64,000 nucleotides of DNA, from assembly GCF_017315945.1 (NCBI RefSeq), contig NZ_JAFLWI010000004.1, forward strand, positions 62,001 to 126,000. The letters run 5' to 3'. The stretch comes from Candidatus Enterococcus courvalinii (GTDB taxonomy: Bacteria; Bacillota; Bacilli; Lactobacillales; Enterococcaceae). The position numbers were made by a program, and so were the translations under genes. A model generated the notes under the pieces. That model made no database searches. It was not told the origin of the DNA and saw only the letters and a program-made list of their open reading frames with translations. Shown piece by piece: positions 3,515-62,101 of the stretch (position 1 is the stretch's first letter; each line of letters begins with the position of its first letter).

Positions 3515-3785
3515 TAAGTAAATGAAATGACATCGAAAAGAAGAGTAGCCATTAGCAGTTTTTAGAGAGTCTCTGGTTGGTGCGAAGAGATAGCGACTAA
3601 TTGTGAAACACATCTTGGAGTCGGTTTTCTGAAATCGAGAAGTAGGAGAACCCGGGTAGCCCGTTATAGCTGCGGTCATTGTTTGATGACCAGATGAGGT
3701 TGGCTGACTGTGAAGCGCCGACAAAAAAAGGTGGAACCACGTTTATTCGTCCTTTGGTCATAACGACCGAAGGCTTTTTTTTTCA
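3515..3785 (+). promoter_or_regulatory. T-box riboswitch leader, first antiterminator/terminator unit
   Basis: Visible T-box parts are the distal stem-loop (TCTCT-GGTTGGTGCGA-AGAGA), the specifier side GTGAAACACATCTTGGAG, and the T-box GGTGGAACCACG at 3730-3741. A terminator with a T-run follows at about 3748-3785. Uncharged tRNA would favour the antiterminator and read-through into the ABC operon. The specifier may be CAC (His) or, one base earlier, ACA (Thr). The base after UGG in the T-box is A, which would pair with a U discriminator and does not fit tRNA-His well. I therefore leave the amino acid open. Confidence 0.88.
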
Positions 3786-38667: not shown

Positions 38668-38696
38668 TTGCTTTTTTAATAATTATTCATTAAACT
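38668..38696 (+). promoter_or_regulatory. Candidate oppA promoter containing the predicted TldR target
   Basis: TTGCTT (38668-38673), a 17-base spacer and TAAACT (38691-38696) form a moderate sigma-A promoter. The spacer holds TTTAA (38675-38679), and the seven bases after it, TAATTAT (38680-38686), equal the start of the guide predicted downstream of the TnpB-like gene. An RNA-guided protein bound here would cover the -10 element. Confidence 0.55.
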
Positions 38697-38720
38697 CTTA
38701 AACAACTTCAGAAATATTTA

Positions 38721-38735
38721 ATTATTCTGAAAATT
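38721..38735 (+). promoter_or_regulatory. CodY-like box 2 in the oppA leader
   Basis: ATTATTCTGAAAATT matches the CodY consensus at 13 of 15 positions and lies between the candidate promoter and the oppA start, where it could act as a roadblock. With TTCAGAA at 38707-38713 it also forms an inverted repeat. Confidence 0.6.
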
Positions 38736-38756: not shown

Positions 38757-40421
38757 ATGAAGAAGAAAGTAACTTTTGGTTTTGTTGCGGTTTGTGGCCT
38801 TGTCCTTGCTGGCTGTTATGGTGGTAGTTCAGATACAGGGAGCAGTGATACAAAAAGCAGTGGTTCTGCTAGTGGAGGCGGCGTATTTAATTTAGTTGTA
38901 CCTCAAGAAATGCCAACAGCTGATTTATCTGTTGCGACAGATACAATTAGTTTTACAGCGTTGAATAATGTATATGAAGGAATTTATCGTCTTGATAAAG
39001 ATAGTAAACCACAGCCTGCAGGTGCAAGTGAGTTGGCAGATGTCAGCGAAGATGGTTTAACTTATAAAATCAAATTACGTGAAGATGCAAAATGGTCGAA
39101 CGGTGAACCTGTAACGGCAGCAGATTATGTTTATGGCTGGCAACGTACGGTTGATCCAAAAACAGCATCTGAATATGCGTATCTATTTGAACCAGTTGCT
39201 AATGCAGCAGATATTACCGCTGGTAAAAAAGATAAATCAGAATTAGGCATCAAAGCAAATGGTGATCATGAATTAGAGATCACACTAACAAAACAAACAC
39301 CTTATTTCCAATATTTATTAGCTTTCCCATCTTTCTTCCCACAAAGTCAAGCAGTTGTTGAAGAAAATGGTGATGCTTATGCTTCAGCAAGTGACAAAGC
39401 AGTTTACAATGGTCCATTTACATTAGAAGACTTTGATGGCCCTGGTACTGATACAGAGTGGACATACAAGAAAAATGATAACTATTGGGATAAAGATGAA
39501 GTGAAGCTATCAGAAGTCAAAGTAAGTGTAGTAAAAGAATCTTCTACTTCATTGAATCTCTTTAAAGATGGACAAGCAGATGATGTCATTTTATCAGGTG
39601 AGTTAGCACAACAAAATGCAAATGATCCAGCTTATACATCTGTGAAAGAAGCTCGTACAAGTTATCTCGAGTTTAATCAACGTGAAGAAGACTCTCCTTT
39701 CAATAATGCTGATTTGCGAAAAGCAATTTCGTATTCCATCAATCGCGATGCGTTAGTAAAACAAGTGATGGGGGATGGCTCAGTTGCATCAACTGGACTA
39801 ATTCCAGCAGATATGACAAAAAATCCTGATACAAACGAAGACTTTGCAAAAGAAGCTGGCGATTTAGTTTCTTATGATAAAGACAAAGCAAAAGAACATT
39901 GGGAAAAAGCAAAGAAAGAACTAGGCATTGACTCACTTGAATTTGAATTGATGGCATCAGATGATGACTCAACGAAGAAAGTGATTGAGTATATCCAAAA
40001 CTCCATTCAAGAAAACTTAGATGGCGTGAAAGTCAAACCAGTTCCAGTCCCATTCTCTGTTCGTTTGGATCGTTCATCATCAGGTGATTTCGATACAGTA
40101 TTAGGTGGTTGGGGTGCTGATTACGCAGATCCAAGTAGTTTTACAGATCTATTCGTAACAGGGAACTCTTATAACCGCGGACAATGGAGCAATGAAGAAT
40201 ATGACAAAGTAGTCAAAGCATCTTCTTCAGCTGATGCCGGCGATGAACAAGCGCGTTGGGACGATTTGCAAGAAGCAAACAAAATCATTGCTGACGATAT
40301 GGGTGTTGCACCAGTTTACCAAAAGGCTGAAGGTCATTTAGTTAATGAAAAAGTCAAAGGAATCGTGCATCACGCAGCTGGGGCTTCATGGGATTACAAG
40401 TGGACATATATCGAAGAATAA
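38757..40421 (+). CDS. oppA: Oligopeptide ABC transporter, substrate-binding lipoprotein OppA
   Basis: A 554-aa family 5 solute-binding protein. The lipoprotein signal ends in VLAGC, followed by a Gly/Ser/Asp-rich linker. The body has the family blocks TADYVYGWQRTVDP, NGPFTLEDFDGPGTD and FNNADLRKAISYSINRDALV. It catches oligopeptides outside the membrane for OppBCDF. A strong GGGG-type site precedes the ATG. A terminator and a convergent small gene separate it from oppB, so oppA has its own promoter, which carries two CodY-like boxes and the predicted TldR target. Confidence 0.95.
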   Translation: MKKKVTFGFVAVCGLVLAGCYGGSSDTGSSDTKSSGSASGGGVFNLVVPQEMPTADLSVATDTISFTALNNVYEGIYRLDKDSKPQPAGASELADVSEDGLTYKIKLREDAKWSNGEPVTAADYVYGWQRTVDPKTASEYAYLFEPVANAADITAGKKDKSELGIKANGDHELEITLTKQTPYFQYLLAFPSFFPQSQAVVEENGDAYASASDKAVYNGPFTLEDFDGPGTDTEWTYKKNDNYWDKDEVKLSEVKVSVVKESSTSLNLFKDGQADDVILSGELAQQNANDPAYTSVKEARTSYLEFNQREEDSPFNNADLRKAISYSINRDALVKQVMGDGSVASTGLIPADMTKNPDTNEDFAKEAGDLVSYDKDKAKEHWEKAKKELGIDSLEFELMASDDDSTKKVIEYIQNSIQENLDGVKVKPVPVPFSVRLDRSSSGDFDTVLGGWGADYADPSSFTDLFVTGNSYNRGQWSNEEYDKVVKASSSADAGDEQARWDDLQEANKIIADDMGVAPVYQKAEGHLVNEKVKGIVHHAAGASWDYKWTYIEE

Positions 40422-40504: not shown

Positions 40505-40849
40505 TTATAAAAGAGCGAAAAACATGAAGAGAATGGAAAAAATAAGTAATATCCCGGCAATAATCAGCCAAAAGCTGTACATACCATGGCTGGCAGATGA
40601 AAGCAGCGAGAACTCTGGTTTTTTCTTCCGGTTTCTTGTTCTAGCTAGATGAATCGATCGTTGAAAATGATCAAAGAAACCCGAGGAAAAAACCCATAAA
40701 AATCCGCCGATAATCAAAAACGGCAACGCGCATAAGAAAAAATCATTTGATAATTGTAGAAAAGTTAATTGATTGGTTAAAAAATTTTTTATGAAAATGA
40801 GGACCATCAACAAAATGGAAATGGCATAAGGAAGATACTTTTTGTTCAT
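40505..40849 (-). CDS. DUF3899 family membrane protein
   Basis: A 114-aa protein with about three membrane helices (about 5-22, 34-55 and 88-112). A basic loop (RTRNRKKKPEF) sits between the second and third. Layout and length fit the DUF3899 family, whose role is unknown. A GGAGC-type site precedes the ATG on the minus strand. It lies between oppA and oppB in the opposite orientation, which breaks the opp cluster into two transcripts. Confidence 0.75.
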   Translation of the reverse strand: MNKKYLPYAISILLMVLIFIKNFLTNQLTFLQLSNDFFLCALPFLIIGGFLWVFSSGFFDHFQRSIHLARTRNRKKKPEFSLLSSASHGMYSFWLIIAGILLIFSILFMFFALL

Positions 40850-40933: not shown

Positions 40934-41875
40934 GTGAATAGTTATATCAAATATGTTTTAAAACGTGTCTTCTTCATGATGATCACGCTGTGGCTGATTG
41001 CCACAATCACTTTTTTCTTAATGCAGTTATTACCAGGAACGCCGTATACCAATCAGGAACGTTTGAGTCCTGAAACGATTGAAATGTTGAATAAACAAGT
41101 AGGTTTAGATAAACCGGTACTTGTTCAATATGGAATTTATCTTTCTAATTTACTTCAGGGTGACTTTGGTATTTCTTTCCAATTTAAAAACCAACCTGTG
41201 GCTAATTTATTAGCAGGCAGAATTGGACCGTCTTTACAATTAGGATTACAAGCAATTATCGTTGGGACGTTTGTTGGAACGATTTTAGGAACGATTTCTG
41301 CAATGAAGCAAAACACGTGGGTGGATAGTTCATCGACCTTAATTGCAATCTTGGGACGTTCGATTCCTAACTTTGTGTTTGCAGTGTTACTCCAATATGT
41401 GTTTGCAATGAAGTTACACATTTTACCAATCGCAAAATGGGATGGTTTCGTCTATACCATTTTACCAACAATTGCTTTAGCGATGTCGCCACTTGCCGAT
41501 TCCGCCCGCTTTATTCGGACCGAAATGGTTGAAGTTCTTCATAGCGATTATGTTGAATTAGCTAGAGCAAAAGGGCTTAGTCGTTGGGAAATTGCCTTCA
41601 AACATGGCTTAAGAAACAGTTTGATTCCATTGATGACTTTATTAGGACCACTGGCTGTTGCGTTAATGACTGGTTCATTAGTAGTTGAAAATATTTTTGC
41701 CATTCCTGGAATCGGGGAACAATTTGTGAAGTCAATTACTACAAATGATTACCCGACAATCATGGCTGTGACTATTCTTTACTCATTTATGTTGATTTTT
41801 GTTATCTTAGTCGTTGACTTATTGTACGGGTTAGTTGACCCAAGAATTCGTGTTTCTGAAGGGAGTCGAGGATAA
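40934..41875 (+). CDS. oppB: Oligopeptide ABC transporter, permease OppB
   Basis: A 313-aa permease with six membrane helices. The N-terminal KYVLKRVFFMMITLWLIATI helix and the EAA loop (ARAKGLSRWEIAFKHGLRNS) are diagnostic of OppB/DppB. The start is GTG 40934 behind AGGGGGAA. The oppC start follows its stop codon with no gap. First gene of the oppBCDF-tldR transcript. Confidence 0.94.
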   Translation: MNSYIKYVLKRVFFMMITLWLIATITFFLMQLLPGTPYTNQERLSPETIEMLNKQVGLDKPVLVQYGIYLSNLLQGDFGISFQFKNQPVANLLAGRIGPSLQLGLQAIIVGTFVGTILGTISAMKQNTWVDSSSTLIAILGRSIPNFVFAVLLQYVFAMKLHILPIAKWDGFVYTILPTIALAMSPLADSARFIRTEMVEVLHSDYVELARAKGLSRWEIAFKHGLRNSLIPLMTLLGPLAVALMTGSLVVENIFAIPGIGEQFVKSITTNDYPTIMAVTILYSFMLIFVILVVDLLYGLVDPRIRVSEGSRG

Positions 41876-42919
41876 ATGGAAATGGTACCGAAACGCTATG
41901 AAACAGTTGCTGAGATTCCTGCAGACGAGTTTCTTCCTTTACAAAAGAATACCGAAGCCGAGCGTGAACAGATTTCTGCTCCTTCGCTGAATTTCTTACA
42001 AGATTCTTGGCGTCGATTGAAGAAAAATAAAGCCGCAGTGATCTCGATGGTCTTATTAACGACAATCATTTTGATTTCAATCGTGACAATCTTTGTTTCA
42101 CCACATAATCCAACTGCACAAAATGTTGATTATATCAACTTACCGCCACGTATTCCTGGTATTAGCATTGATGGTCTAAACGGAAAAGCAATGGTTGGTG
42201 GCGAGTTAGTCGATAAATACGCACAGGCAAATGTCCCAGCAAATGTGAACTTTCTTTTGGGAACAGATGGCCTAGGTCGTGATGTGTTGAGTCGCTTGTT
42301 CATGGGGACGAGAATTTCTCTATTGATTGCATTTATTGCAGCCATTTTAGACGTGACAATTGGTGTTGCTTATGGACTGGTTTCTGGTCTTTTAGGCGGA
42401 CGTGTAGATAATGCAATGCAACGTTTTTTAGAAATTTTATCTGGGATTCCGAACTTAGTTGTAATGATTTTGATGTTGGTTGTATTTGAACCAGGAATTT
42501 TTTCAATCGTAGCGGCGATGGCAATCACGAACTGGATTCCGATGGCACGGATTGTTCGTGCACAGACATTGAAATTAAAAGATCAAGAGTATGTTTTAGC
42601 TGGTTTGACTTTGGGTGAATCAAAGTTGAAAATCGCATTCAAACATATCTTACCGAATATCTCAAGTGTCATTATTATTCAAATGATGTTTAGTATCCCA
42701 TCTGCTATTTTCTTCGAAGCCTTTTTAAGTTTCATCGGGTTAGGTTTAACACCACCGTCTGCTTCATTAGGAACCATGCTAAGTGATGGTTACAAAACAT
42801 TCTTATATCTGCCGTATCTATTATGGATTCCGGCAGCAACTTTATCGGTTATCATGATTGGCTTTAACTTATTAGCTGATGGATTACGTGATGCCTTCGA
42901 TCCTAAAATGAAAGAGTGA
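41876..42919 (+). CDS. oppC: Oligopeptide ABC transporter, permease OppC
   Basis: A 347-aa permease. The N-terminal cytoplasmic tail (about 1-55) ends in the OppC_N motif DSWRRLKKNKAAVISMVLL. LLGTDGLGRDVLSRLFMGTR and the EAA loop LAGLTLGESKLKIAFKHILP follow. It pairs with OppB to form the peptide channel. A GGGAG site lies inside the oppB end. It is coupled to both neighbours. Confidence 0.94.
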   Translation: MEMVPKRYETVAEIPADEFLPLQKNTEAEREQISAPSLNFLQDSWRRLKKNKAAVISMVLLTTIILISIVTIFVSPHNPTAQNVDYINLPPRIPGISIDGLNGKAMVGGELVDKYAQANVPANVNFLLGTDGLGRDVLSRLFMGTRISLLIAFIAAILDVTIGVAYGLVSGLLGGRVDNAMQRFLEILSGIPNLVVMILMLVVFEPGIFSIVAAMAITNWIPMARIVRAQTLKLKDQEYVLAGLTLGESKLKIAFKHILPNISSVIIIQMMFSIPSAIFFEAFLSFIGLGLTPPSASLGTMLSDGYKTFLYLPYLLWIPAATLSVIMIGFNLLADGLRDAFDPKMKE

Positions 42920-42924
42920 GAATT

Positions 42925-44001
42925 ATGACGAAAATTTTAGAAGTGAAAGATTTAGAAATTTCTTTTGACACTTATGCTGGTAAAGTTCGAGCAATTCGCG
43001 GTGTTAATTTTCACTTGAATAAAGGGGAAACTTTGGCAATCGTTGGTGAATCTGGGAGTGGGAAATCTGTTACAACTCGAAGTATCATGCGACTTCTGTC
43101 AAGTAATGCCAACATTGATGCTGGTCAGATCCTATTTAAAGGGGAAGACATTGTGAACAAATCCGAAAAAGAAATGCAAAAAATTCGCGGGAAAGAAATT
43201 GCAATGATTTTCCAAGATCCAATGACATCATTAGATCCAACGATGACAATTGGAAAGCAAGTAGCAGAATCTTTACGTAAACATAATAAAGTATCGAAAA
43301 AAGATGGCGAAAAAGCAGCGCTTGACCTACTAAATTTAGTTGGAATTCCAGAAGCTGAAAAACGAATCAAAAGCTACCCCCATCAGTTTTCAGGTGGACA
43401 GCGTCAGCGGATAGTGATTGCGATTGCTTTGATTTGTTATCCAGAAATCCTAATTGCAGATGAACCAACAACCGCGTTAGATGTAACAATCCAAGCGCAA
43501 ATTTTAGAATTACTAAAAGAAATTCAAACAAAAATTGATACATCAATTATTTTTATTACCCATGACCTTGGTGTAGTGGCAAATGTCGCTGACCGAGTGG
43601 CTGTTATGTATGGTGGGAAAATCATCGAAGTAGGAACTTCGGAAGAAATTTTTTATAATCCACAACATCCTTATACTTGGGGCTTACTTGGTTCAATGCC
43701 GACGTTGGAAAGCGCAAGTAAACAGCTTTATGCAATTCCTGGTTCACCTCCAGATTTGTTGAATCCACCAAAAGGGGACGCATTTTATCCACGTAATGAA
43801 TATGCTTTGCAAATTGATGCAGAGCAAGAACCACCATTTTTTGAATTATCTGCGACACACAAAGCAGCAACTTGGTTGTTAGCACCACAAGCACCAAAAG
43901 TTCTGCCACCAGAAGAAATTCAACGTCGTTGGGCAATTTTTAAAGAAAAACAAGGGAGCCAAGGGGGAATAGTGGATGAAAAACAAGCTACTCGAGGTTA
44001 A
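42925..44001 (+). CDS. oppD: Oligopeptide ABC transporter, ATPase OppD
   Basis: A 358-aa ATPase of the OppD/DppD type. Walker A is GESGSGKSVTTRS, the Q-loop is MIFQDPMTSLDPTMT, the signature is FSGGQRQRIVIAIAL, and Walker B is ILIADEPTTALD. The C-terminal oligo_HPY domain (PHTWG-like HPYTWGLL, then IPGSPPDLLNPPKG) carries the region that in OppD/OppF proteins binds an iron-sulphur cluster or contacts the permease. ATG 42925 is preferred; a GTG at 42916 overlapping the oppC stop is the alternative. Confidence 0.93.
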   Translation: MTKILEVKDLEISFDTYAGKVRAIRGVNFHLNKGETLAIVGESGSGKSVTTRSIMRLLSSNANIDAGQILFKGEDIVNKSEKEMQKIRGKEIAMIFQDPMTSLDPTMTIGKQVAESLRKHNKVSKKDGEKAALDLLNLVGIPEAEKRIKSYPHQFSGGQRQRIVIAIALICYPEILIADEPTTALDVTIQAQILELLKEIQTKIDTSIIFITHDLGVVANVADRVAVMYGGKIIEVGTSEEIFYNPQHPYTWGLLGSMPTLESASKQLYAIPGSPPDLLNPPKGDAFYPRNEYALQIDAEQEPPFFELSATHKAATWLLAPQAPKVLPPEEIQRRWAIFKEKQGSQGGIVDEKQATRG

Positions 44002-44929
44002 AGGTCTAAAACAATATTTCAACATTGGCAAAAAAAATGAAGTGCATGCGGTGAACGATATCAGTTTCCACATTTATGAAGGGGAAACGTTTGGGTTAGT
44101 TGGTGAATCTGGGAGTGGAAAGTCGACGACTGGTCGGACGATCATTCGTTTAAATGAACCAACTGACGGTGAGATTTTATTTGATGGACAAGATGTAACG
44201 AAAATCAAAGGAAAAAAAGAAATGACGAAATTTCGTCATGAAGTCCAAATGATTTTTCAAGATCCTTATGCATCCTTAAATCCGAGAATGAAAGTTCGTG
44301 ACATTATTGCTGAAGGCATTGATGTGAACGGTTTAGCAAAATCACCGCAAGAACGTGCGCAAAAAGTTGATGAGTTGCTAAAAACAGTTGGGTTAAATCC
44401 CAGTCACGGAACACGTTATCCTCATGAATTTTCAGGTGGACAACGGCAACGGATTGGCATTGCTCGAGCGTTAGCAGTCAATCCGCGGTTTGTTATTTGT
44501 GATGAACCTATTTCTGCACTAGATGTGTCGATTCAGGCTCAAGTAGTGAACTTATTACAAGATTTACAAGAAGAACAAAATTTAACTTACTTATTTATCG
44601 CCCATGATTTATCAATGGTGAAACACATTAGTGATCGCATTGGCGTTATGCATAATGGCTTATTGTTGGAAATGGGCACAAGTGATGAAATTTACAACTT
44701 TGGTGTTCATCCTTACACAGAAAGTCTATTGTCTGCTATTCCATTACCAGATCCAGATCATGAGAGACAACGTCGTCGGATCAAATATCAGCCAGAGCCA
44801 GATGATAATCAAGTACGTACGTTAAGAGAGATTGCACCAGAACATTTTGTGTACGCAACAGAACAAGAAGTTGCTTATTACGCGAAAAAATTGCAACGAA
44901 AAAAAGAAAACTTACTCGTAGCAAACTAG
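43976..44929 (+). CDS. oppF: Oligopeptide ABC transporter, ATPase OppF
   Basis: A 317-aa ATPase. Walker A is GESGSGKSTTGR, the signature is FSGGQRQRIGIARAL, Walker B is FVICDEPISALD, and the C-terminal oligo_HPY part begins HPYTESLLSAIPLPDP. It overlaps oppD by 26 bases and is translated from ATG 43976 behind AAGGGGG. Its stop codon is 13 bases before the TnpB-like gene, so the two are almost surely co-transcribed. That neighbour is what makes this opp cluster unusual. Confidence 0.93.
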   Translation: MKNKLLEVKGLKQYFNIGKKNEVHAVNDISFHIYEGETFGLVGESGSGKSTTGRTIIRLNEPTDGEILFDGQDVTKIKGKKEMTKFRHEVQMIFQDPYASLNPRMKVRDIIAEGIDVNGLAKSPQERAQKVDELLKTVGLNPSHGTRYPHEFSGGQRQRIGIARALAVNPRFVICDEPISALDVSIQAQVVNLLQDLQEEQNLTYLFIAHDLSMVKHISDRIGVMHNGLLLEMGTSDEIYNFGVHPYTESLLSAIPLPDPDHERQRRRIKYQPEPDDNQVRTLREIAPEHFVYATEQEVAYYAKKLQRKKENLLVAN

Positions 44930-44942
44930 GGGGTAAGTGCTG

Positions 44943-45953
44943 ATGCTCAAAGCCTTTAAATTCCGGATGTATCCCACCGATGAACAAAAAAAATGGTTGA
45001 TTCAAAATTTTGGTTGTGTTCGTTTCACTTATAATCACTTATTACTTTCACGACAAGAAACCTATAAGCAACTAGGTGTGATTGATTATTCGTTGACGCC
45101 AGCTGCCTTGAAAAAGCGTTATGCGTTTTTAAAAGAGGCAGATAGCTTGGCATTAGCCAACGCTCAGTTGAATTTGGATCGTGCGTTTCGCAATTATTTT
45201 AAAGGACGAGCGAGCTTTCCAAAGTTGAAAAGTAAGAAGAGTATGTGGCAGTCTTATACCACAAATAACCAAGGACACACCATTTATTTAGAAGGAAATC
45301 AATTGAAATTACCAAAACAAAAAAAGTTGTTCAACGTGCATGTCCACCGACCAATCGAAGGTACGATTCGTTCAGCTACGATTTCTTCACGATATAATGA
45401 AGAGTTTTATGTTTCCTTTTTATGTGAAGTTCCGCTGAATAAAAGACAGAAAACCAATGAATGGGTGGGAATCGCGTATTGCCCCAAAGGATTAGTCGAA
45501 ACTTCGCAGAAAATCGAGGTTATTGCACCTAAACTTTTGGTGACAAATCAAAAAATCGCTGTAGCAGAAAGAAAATTGAGTATTCGAGCAAAAGCAGCTC
45601 AACAACGAAAAAAGGCTTTAGAACGAGCAAAAAATTATCAAAAACAAAAAAGAAAAGTGCTGAATCTTTATCAAAAACAAAAATATCAACGGGAAGATTA
45701 CTTAGAACAACTTTCGGCTGTTCTGGTGAATAAATTTGATTATTTGTTTATTGAATCATTGCCAGATGAGAAGCTTGCTTCTGATTTTTCCGTACAAGAT
45801 TGGCACAAACTGTTGACCAAATTGAGGTATAAAGCAGAATGGTATCAGAAAACCTTTATCTTGATTAATACACAGGACATCCACAGTCATTCTGCGCAAG
45901 AAAAGAGTCGGCTGTTGGAACGAATTGGGAAACAATTACTTTTTGATGTCTGA
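44943..45953 (+). CDS. tldR: TnpB-like nuclease-dead RNA-guided repressor (TldR)
   Basis: A 336-aa member of the IS605 OrfB/TnpB family. It starts LKAFKFRMYPTDEQKKWLIQ, followed by the typical FTYNHLL helix and the FPKLKSKKSMWQSYT block. The RuvC domain is disabled. The first catalytic site, GID in TnpB, reads VGIAY (A178); the second glutamate remains (E271, YLFIES); after WHKLLTKLRYKAEWY the protein ends without the CxxC zinc finger or the third RuvC aspartate. No transposase tnpA or IS ends are present. This is how TldR proteins differ from TnpB, and oppF-linked TldRs in enterococci are an established group. AGGGGG lies ten bases before ATG 44943. Confidence 0.92.
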   Translation: MLKAFKFRMYPTDEQKKWLIQNFGCVRFTYNHLLLSRQETYKQLGVIDYSLTPAALKKRYAFLKEADSLALANAQLNLDRAFRNYFKGRASFPKLKSKKSMWQSYTTNNQGHTIYLEGNQLKLPKQKKLFNVHVHRPIEGTIRSATISSRYNEEFYVSFLCEVPLNKRQKTNEWVGIAYCPKGLVETSQKIEVIAPKLLVTNQKIAVAERKLSIRAKAAQQRKKALERAKNYQKQKRKVLNLYQKQKYQREDYLEQLSAVLVNKFDYLFIESLPDEKLASDFSVQDWHKLLTKLRYKAEWYQKTFILINTQDIHSHSAQEKSRLLERIGKQLLFDV

Positions 45954-46060
45954 ACTGGTAGGAGCGCCAGAGTTCGCCTTGTTAATAAAAAGTTTTTAAA
46001 CTTTTGTTTCTAGGAATTTTCTTTTCGCTTAAAGGAAAAGCTCACTAATTATGAGAAACC
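45930..46060 (+). ncRNA. Predicted TldR guide RNA (omega-RNA-like)
   Basis: TnpB-type guide RNAs span the end of the gene and the bases beyond it, with the guide at the 3' end. Here a bulged hairpin (GAACTGG/CCAG-AGTTC, 45952-45976) and a second hairpin (CTTTTC-GCTTAAAG-GAAAAG, 46021-46040) are followed by CTCAC (46041-46045). That is similar to the hairpin plus TTCAA/TTCAC end of known omega RNAs. The predicted guide is TAATTATGAGAAACC (46046-46060), and a strong terminator starts at 46061. The 5' boundary and the exact first guide base are inferred. Confidence 0.6.
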
Positions 46061-46119
46061 AAAAACCAAGGACTGTAACTTAAATCAGTAATGATTTTTG
46101 TTACAGTCCTTGGTTTTTA
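46061..46119. terminator. Bidirectional terminator ending the guide RNA and nrtR
   Basis: AAAAACCAAGGACTGTAAC and GTTACAGTCCTTGGTTTTT form a perfect 19-bp stem. It closes the oppBCDF-tldR-guide transcript and also the convergent Nudix gene. Confidence 0.92.
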
Positions 46120-61804: not shown

Positions 61805-61962
61805 ATTTTCGGCATTTTATCCAATAATATGAATAAATACTAATGGAACTTGTTGAATAGCGAACATAAAAGAAAAAAATCATAGAAACATTCAGTTTTC
61901 CTGTTTGCTAGTCACTGATAATTATGTTATATTTTGTGAGGGAATTGTTTCCCAAAATAAAA

Positions 61963-62064
61963 TCAGAGTAGGAAATAAAGCGTTAAGTGCTGGGAGGATG
62001 GGATGTTGCCGCCCGGACGAAGGACAAGAGAGCTTGTTCGCGGTTTTATTTTCGCATTCGCTGC
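61963..62064 (+). promoter_or_regulatory. Tetrahydrofolate (THF) riboswitch
   Basis: The leader has the THF-I core: AGAGTAG, GCGTTAAGTG, GATGGGATGTTGCCG, then CGAAG-AGAG-CGCGG. The flanks AAATAAA and TTTATTT pair as P2, and CAG with CTG as part of P1. It ends about 25 bases before the ribosome site of folT, so control is probably at translation. Folate binding would lower FolT synthesis. Confidence 0.9.
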
Positions 62065-62101
62065 ATATTATTGTGTAGCAGCTCTTAAAGGAGATGCTAA
62101 A

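Follow-up and report, generated by a model that had tools for sequence, protein, structure and literature searches.

Background

Nuclease-dead TnpB proteins encoded beside oppF in Enterococcus, the oppF-associated TldRs, were reportedly described by Wiegand et al. in 2024 (Nature 631:439), so that the kind of gene considered here is already known. The tldR gene of the present window (the whole stretch of DNA analysed, 64,000 nucleotides from Candidatus Enterococcus courvalinii) agrees with them in both respects, being a nuclease-dead TnpB gene and lying beside oppF. The fliC-associated TldR of Enterobacter prophages is, according to PMC13418256, likewise a RuvC-dead TnpB with an adjacent gRNA and a promoter target. 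In that paper 6-nt guides reduced motility and the seed is given as 6 nt, to which the short match of our TldR can be likened. Ours differs from the fliC system in belonging to a transport operon of the chromosome, in its predicted feedback on its own operon, in a predicted second target reached with one guide, and in a match of only 6-8 nt.

The IS200/IS605 TnpB nucleases, for example PDB 8bf8, are homologous to TldR (E 8e-41, profile positions 3-305) and share with it a guide RNA derived from the right end, as judged from IS relatives. Unlike them, the window TldR is without the catalytic Asp and the zinc finger and lies off any mobile element. In the accessible portions of the TldR/TnpB literature on oppF, oligopeptide, Enterococcus and dtpT, we found no oppA or dtpT targets, which carries little weight because the 2024 work of Wiegand et al. 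lay outside the comparison. One paper lists an E. faecium TnpB gene as a mobile element.

The tldR gene and its product

The tldR gene (44943..45953, + strand) encodes 336 aa from the ATG at 44943, or 338 aa if an upstream GTG is taken as the start. The oppF stop at 44929 is followed 13 nt later by the tldR start, AGGGGG stands 5' of the ATG, and the product scores 148.9 bits against NCBIfam guided_TnpB (NF040570, cut-off 100), all of which bears out an earlier note's description of a TnpB-family ORF with a ribosome site behind oppF. In Pfam an N-terminal HTH is above its cut-off, and two more TnpB-type domains fall below theirs. Aligned with nine IS TnpBs, TldR has A178 at the RuvC-I position, retains E271 and is missing both the RuvC-III Asp and the zinc cysteines, just as the earlier note had read from the letters. 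In the same alignment D/E/D and the four zinc cysteines (CCCC) are intact in 9/9 IS TnpBs; TldR does not have the intact RuvC D/E/D and zinc finger of an active IS200/IS605 TnpB nuclease. The nearby ORF list, inspected by eye, holds nothing tnpA-like, again in agreement with that note, and TldR is the sole match in its own genome at E <= 0.001. The window comes from a genome of Enterococcus type; the nearest named proteins, from Enterococcus sp. DIV0660C and E. thailandicus, are 99% identical.

The RuvC-I Asp is absent in all 48 aligned TldR-type homologues. Loci L097-L100 and L169 (E. termitis) have a longer C-terminus with T/E/E and no zinc cysteines, and L101 has C/E/E; judged from the alignment, these opp-linked proteins are of the same kind but less degraded, intermediates between TnpB and the truncated TldR. 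Two loci have short tldR ORFs (L139, 235 aa; L149, 228 aa), reflecting either decay or assembly error.

Conservation and selection

A TldR/TnpB match of any sort, IS copies counted, was found in 52 of the 98 genomes searched for relatives, our own among them. Within the genus, a homologue of 333-338 aa occurs in 13 of 15 genomes (own included) and stands behind oppF in 13/13; the oppF-adjacent position recurs elsewhere in the family, as in Tetragenococcus, and across many genera. Among 42 named loci, oppF lies at most 1.5 kb upstream in 36, at 15-647 nt, and the other 6 are without it. TldR-type genes with no oppF within 1.5 kb upstream include L131, L137, L139 and L141. E. dispar (L134, L138) and Enterococcus sp. 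MJM12 (L133, L144) each have two copies of tldR that share a guide seed, one copy in each genome (L134, L144) lying away from oppF. Two genomes that lack tldR, G002 and G036, have an IS-type TnpB elsewhere.

In four close pairs dN/dS of tldR is 0.048, 0.016, 0.029 and 0.074; in two distant pairs, where dS is high, it is 0.13 and 0.11, and one further pair has no usable dS. These sequence comparisons indicate that tldR is under purifying selection and stably associated with a gene that is not part of a transposon, and the earlier note's picture of an intact gene rather than a decaying transposon agrees with the range of 0.016-0.074. A quickly built tree of 19 IS TnpBs and 46 TldR-type proteins (the short ORFs L139 and L149 omitted) sets the TldR types apart by a branch whose support is only 68, which allows a single origin of the TldR types but does not demonstrate it.

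The predicted guide RNA and its boundary

Directly downstream of tldR lies a conserved block (45953-46060 overall) whose first base is also the last of the tldR stop codon and which reads AACTGG..CCAG..TCGCC..hairpin..TTTCTAGGAA..CTCAC, then TAATTATGANAAACC, then a terminator. We divide it into a predicted gRNA scaffold (45953..46045, + strand; 5' end as predicted), ending GCTCAC, and a guide region TAATTATGAGAAACC (46046..46060, + strand), which starts with TAATTATGA at 46046 and of which the first 7 letters alone match the oppA target. A terminator hairpin (46061..46118, + strand) lies 3' of the guide, ahead of a converging downstream gene. The pattern is complete in 41 of the 43 sequences scanned; the exceptions are L139 and L169, of which L169 still has the core. 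RNAalifold on 39 sequences returned 13 pairs, 2 with compensatory change, and a covariation term of 0; folded singly, 35 of the 39 gRNAs form the variable hairpin and 4 fail (the gRNA alignment, A2, omitted L146 and L148). The 168-nt stretch of the window has a folding z of -6.3, owed mostly to the terminator. Comparative sequence evidence by itself points to an adjacent gRNA with a TnpB-type scaffold, in which covariation is modest.

The boundary between scaffold and guide was taken from IS relatives. All 20 IS-bearing loci end in ..TTCAC and their flanks diverge beyond it, and for this reason we take the letters after TCAC as the guide. The left end is unreadable in 7 of these 20 loci; among the 13 readable ones TTTAA stands at the start in 12 and TTAA in one (L168). 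TTTAA is likely the retained target motif and hence the TAM, an assignment that follows what is established for the IS200/IS605 family. Guide start and TAM both come from IS copies, independently of the target site. The scaffold's final GCTCAC resembles the ..TTCAC with which live IS relatives end on the right. The earlier note was therefore half right in seeing no IS end here: the last bases of an IS right end (..TCAC) persist and now close the gRNA scaffold on its 3' side. That note also passed over the key evidence, namely the guide RNA and its target.

The opp operon and the oppA promoter

The predicted target gene, oppA (38757..40421), encodes a substrate-binding lipoprotein. It is followed by a block spanning 40934..44929 that comprises oppB (40934-41875, an Opp3B equivalog above cut-off), oppC (41876-42919), oppD (42916-44001) and oppF (43976-44929), all on the + strand; on sequence grounds the opp genes are an oligopeptide importer. 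Between oppA and oppB, a 114-aa ORF runs on the opposite strand (40505-40849), with a TTGACT-17-TACATT promoter-like site. Since this ORF separates oppA from oppBCDF, we only infer that tldR is placed on the repressed transcript.

The oppA promoter core (38668..38696, + strand) was read by eye from an alignment, the consensus scanner having omitted it, and consists of -35 TTGCTT (38668-38673), a 17-nt spacer and -10 TAAACT (38691-38696). Inside the spacer sits the predicted target TTTAA|TAATTAT (38675..38686, + strand), that is, the TAM at 38675-38679 followed by a 7-nt guide match at 38680-38686. Downstream of it, AATTATTCTGAAAATT (38720..38735, + strand) is a putative CodY-like box. Elsewhere in the window we noted a T-box leader (3524-3757, + strand) and a THF riboswitch (61962-62065, + strand).

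A site for the locus's own guide, defined as TTTAA plus at least 6 letters no more than 200 bp from an oppA, occurs in 41/41 loci with an opp-linked tldR and a gRNA (41 genomes, own included), on the + strand in 34 and on the - strand in 7. The count left out L057 and L058, which have no oppB, and for L092, L094-L096 and L104 it drew on one oppA start, the other being truncated. The chance level is low: shuffled promoters give 0.0096 sites per locus, and other 200-bp windows 3/2425. Upstream of oppA in eight genomes that lack tldR and have an orthologous opp operon, no guide site was found (0/8; best match 3 letters). TTTAATAATTA is likewise present upstream of oppA in 36/36 named oppF-linked loci, which are largely the same species as the main set. 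The association between tldR and the oppA site has a Fisher p of 2.2e-9, calculated on rows that are related by descent. Mapped onto the Opp tree, the association comes down to few independent events: 3 contrasts are supported (4 if every branch is counted), each pointing the way expected, with a sign test p of 0.25; this test took its site states from the promoter comparison, where site and tldR coincide in 47/47 rows and from which G040, G051 and the second copies in G023, G042 and G051 were left out.

The site does not always occupy the spacer. L097-L101 lack the spacer site and have TTTAA with 7-8 letters on the opposite strand, downstream of the -10. L059 and L060 have a paralogous opp (OppA 25-26%) with a 6-letter site upstream of oppA on the - strand. 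The match between guide and target extends over 6-8 letters only; the conserved AAACC next to the seed mismatches the target, a feature that our model does not account for, and both the seed and the oppA promoter are AT-rich. Targets with a longer guide match were dropped: perfect TTTAATAATTATGA is absent from the genome, and one-mismatch sites number 4 against 6 for the control. A match TTATGAGAAA upstream of oppA was set aside as well, lying within the coding part of a putative acetyltransferase ORF and lacking TTTAA.

A second site upstream of dtpT

The 12-mer TTTAATAATTAT has 4 sites in the window genome, equal to the control count, one of them in the oppA promoter and one upstream of the oligopeptide:H+ symporter gene, which we call dtpT. 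The other two were singletons in cross-species clustering, from which three places in G001 without a locus were left out. Over the 13 genus genomes with tldR there are 51 sites against 34 for controls, 13 of the 51 at oppA and 12 at dtpT. Across all 15 genus genomes these two sites alone are broadly conserved (oppA in 13/13 with tldR, dtpT in 12/13), and others occur in at most 3 genomes. The dtpT site is kept while its flanks diverge; it is absent in one genome with tldR (G005) and in both genus genomes without tldR (0/2), giving a Fisher p of 0.029 for the comparison of the two groups. In G001, which lacks tldR, the opp operon was not found at the cut-off used.

Over the family as a whole, three groups, our genus being one, have sites upstream of dtpT, which differ between groups in position or strand. 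Among evaluable genomes with tldR, 19 of 36 have the site and 17 are without it, against 0.5 expected from shuffles, and it was found in 0/3 genomes without tldR. G058 offered just 195 bp upstream of dtpT, and at E <= 1e-100 dtpT was not found in G023 nor in 7 of a set of 28 genomes. An 11-mer scan of six genomes from two other groups gave 43 sites versus 31 for controls, with oppA represented in 6/6 and dtpT in 3/6; four further sites are each common to 2 genomes, and a third shared site (5 genomes) falls in an apparent coding region and was put down to coding conservation. Where the earlier note had proposed control of peptide uptake from gene position, target-site evidence at oppA and dtpT now points the same way, and we predict a two-transporter peptide-uptake regulon of Opp and dtpT.

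Two side observations concern the E. mundtii group, within three close genomes only (G004, G008, G011). A 9-letter match TTTAA|TAATTATGA lies upstream of a TTGCAA..TATAAT promoter-like stretch (L231, L252, L262) and precedes genes read by eye as encoding a TetR-like regulator and an exporter of the ABC type. In the same genomes a guide site lies directly upstream of what appears by eye to be an APC-like permease gene (L225, L257, L255).

Proposed mechanism and alternatives

The mechanism that we propose is as follows. A gRNA would be read from just downstream of tldR, and the TldR-gRNA complex would find TTTAA with about 6-7 guide letters (TAATTAT), settle between the -35 and -10 of oppA and there block RNA polymerase; RNA binding, DNA binding and repression are, in this scheme, all presumed. 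The same guide would also find the site upstream of dtpT, where the complex may act too. With tldR standing last in the opp locus, peptide import may come under feedback by TldR. A match of 6-7 nt should in principle be enough, since 6-nt guides work for the fliC-type TldR (PMC13418256). The model does not say how a seed of this length keeps off other sites, 12-mer sites numbering about 4 per genome, near the control rate.

In our opinion it is highly likely that tldR is a TnpB that has lost its nuclease, has been taken over by the host as a TldR and represses oppA by RNA-guided binding. This reading, which the earlier note had already proposed, is supported jointly by the dead nuclease site of a TnpB, its place in the operon, the evidence of selection, the gRNA locus and, in the opp promoter, a guide match flanked by a TAM. 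Weighing on the other side are the shortness of the match and its AT-rich setting, the mismatched AAACC, a frequency of 12-mer sites near that of controls, the small number of independent contrasts, the modest covariation, the tldR-bearing genomes without a dtpT site and the six named homologues with no oppF nearby. One might object that the loss of the nuclease site and the C-terminus, together with the two short homologues, betrays a decaying transposon-derived TnpB without present function; we find this hardly credible at all, given the low dN/dS in the four close pairs, the oppF-adjacent place kept in many genera, and the conservation of both gRNA and target. It is also very improbable that the promoter element serves an ordinary DNA-binding protein and resembles the guide by coincidence. 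The element is indeed AT-rich and roughly palindromic, with CodY-like boxes nearby, but guide start and TAM were derived from IS elements, the element is missing in 8/8 opp operons without tldR, and in other clades the match has moved or changed strand and yet keeps TTTAA and the guide letters; moreover, a second conserved site stands at another peptide transporter.

A different objection grants that TldR binds guided sites and doubts that it is mainly an opp repressor, making of it an activator or a roadblock, or placing its main role at dtpT or another gene. The dtpT site, about 160-270 nt upstream of the start and outside any obvious promoter core, lends this some support. We nevertheless judge it unlikely, as the oppA site takes up the spacer between -35 and -10, so that a complex bound there should keep polymerase out, and as the fliC-type TldR is a repressor according to PMC13418256. 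We therefore keep to RNA-guided repression: TldR very probably turns peptide uptake down by guided binding instead of cutting.

Implications

We lean, with less assurance, towards a broader hypothesis. Throughout the Enterococcaceae, a small peptide-uptake regulon made up of Opp (through feedback) and the proton-driven DtpT may be governed by one host-owned guide with a seed of only 6-7 nt. The guide would stay fixed while its target sites evolved anew in other places or on the opposite strand, so that a natural CRISPRi-like regulator would behave like an ordinary transcription factor. The locus may then illustrate what a domesticated RNA-guided repressor can show after long inheritance, namely an unchanging guide that matches through its seed alone, two or more targets within a pathway, and turnover of target sites. 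It would also provide a directly testable regulon for the oppF-linked TldRs and tie RNA-guided control to peptide nutrition in enterococci.
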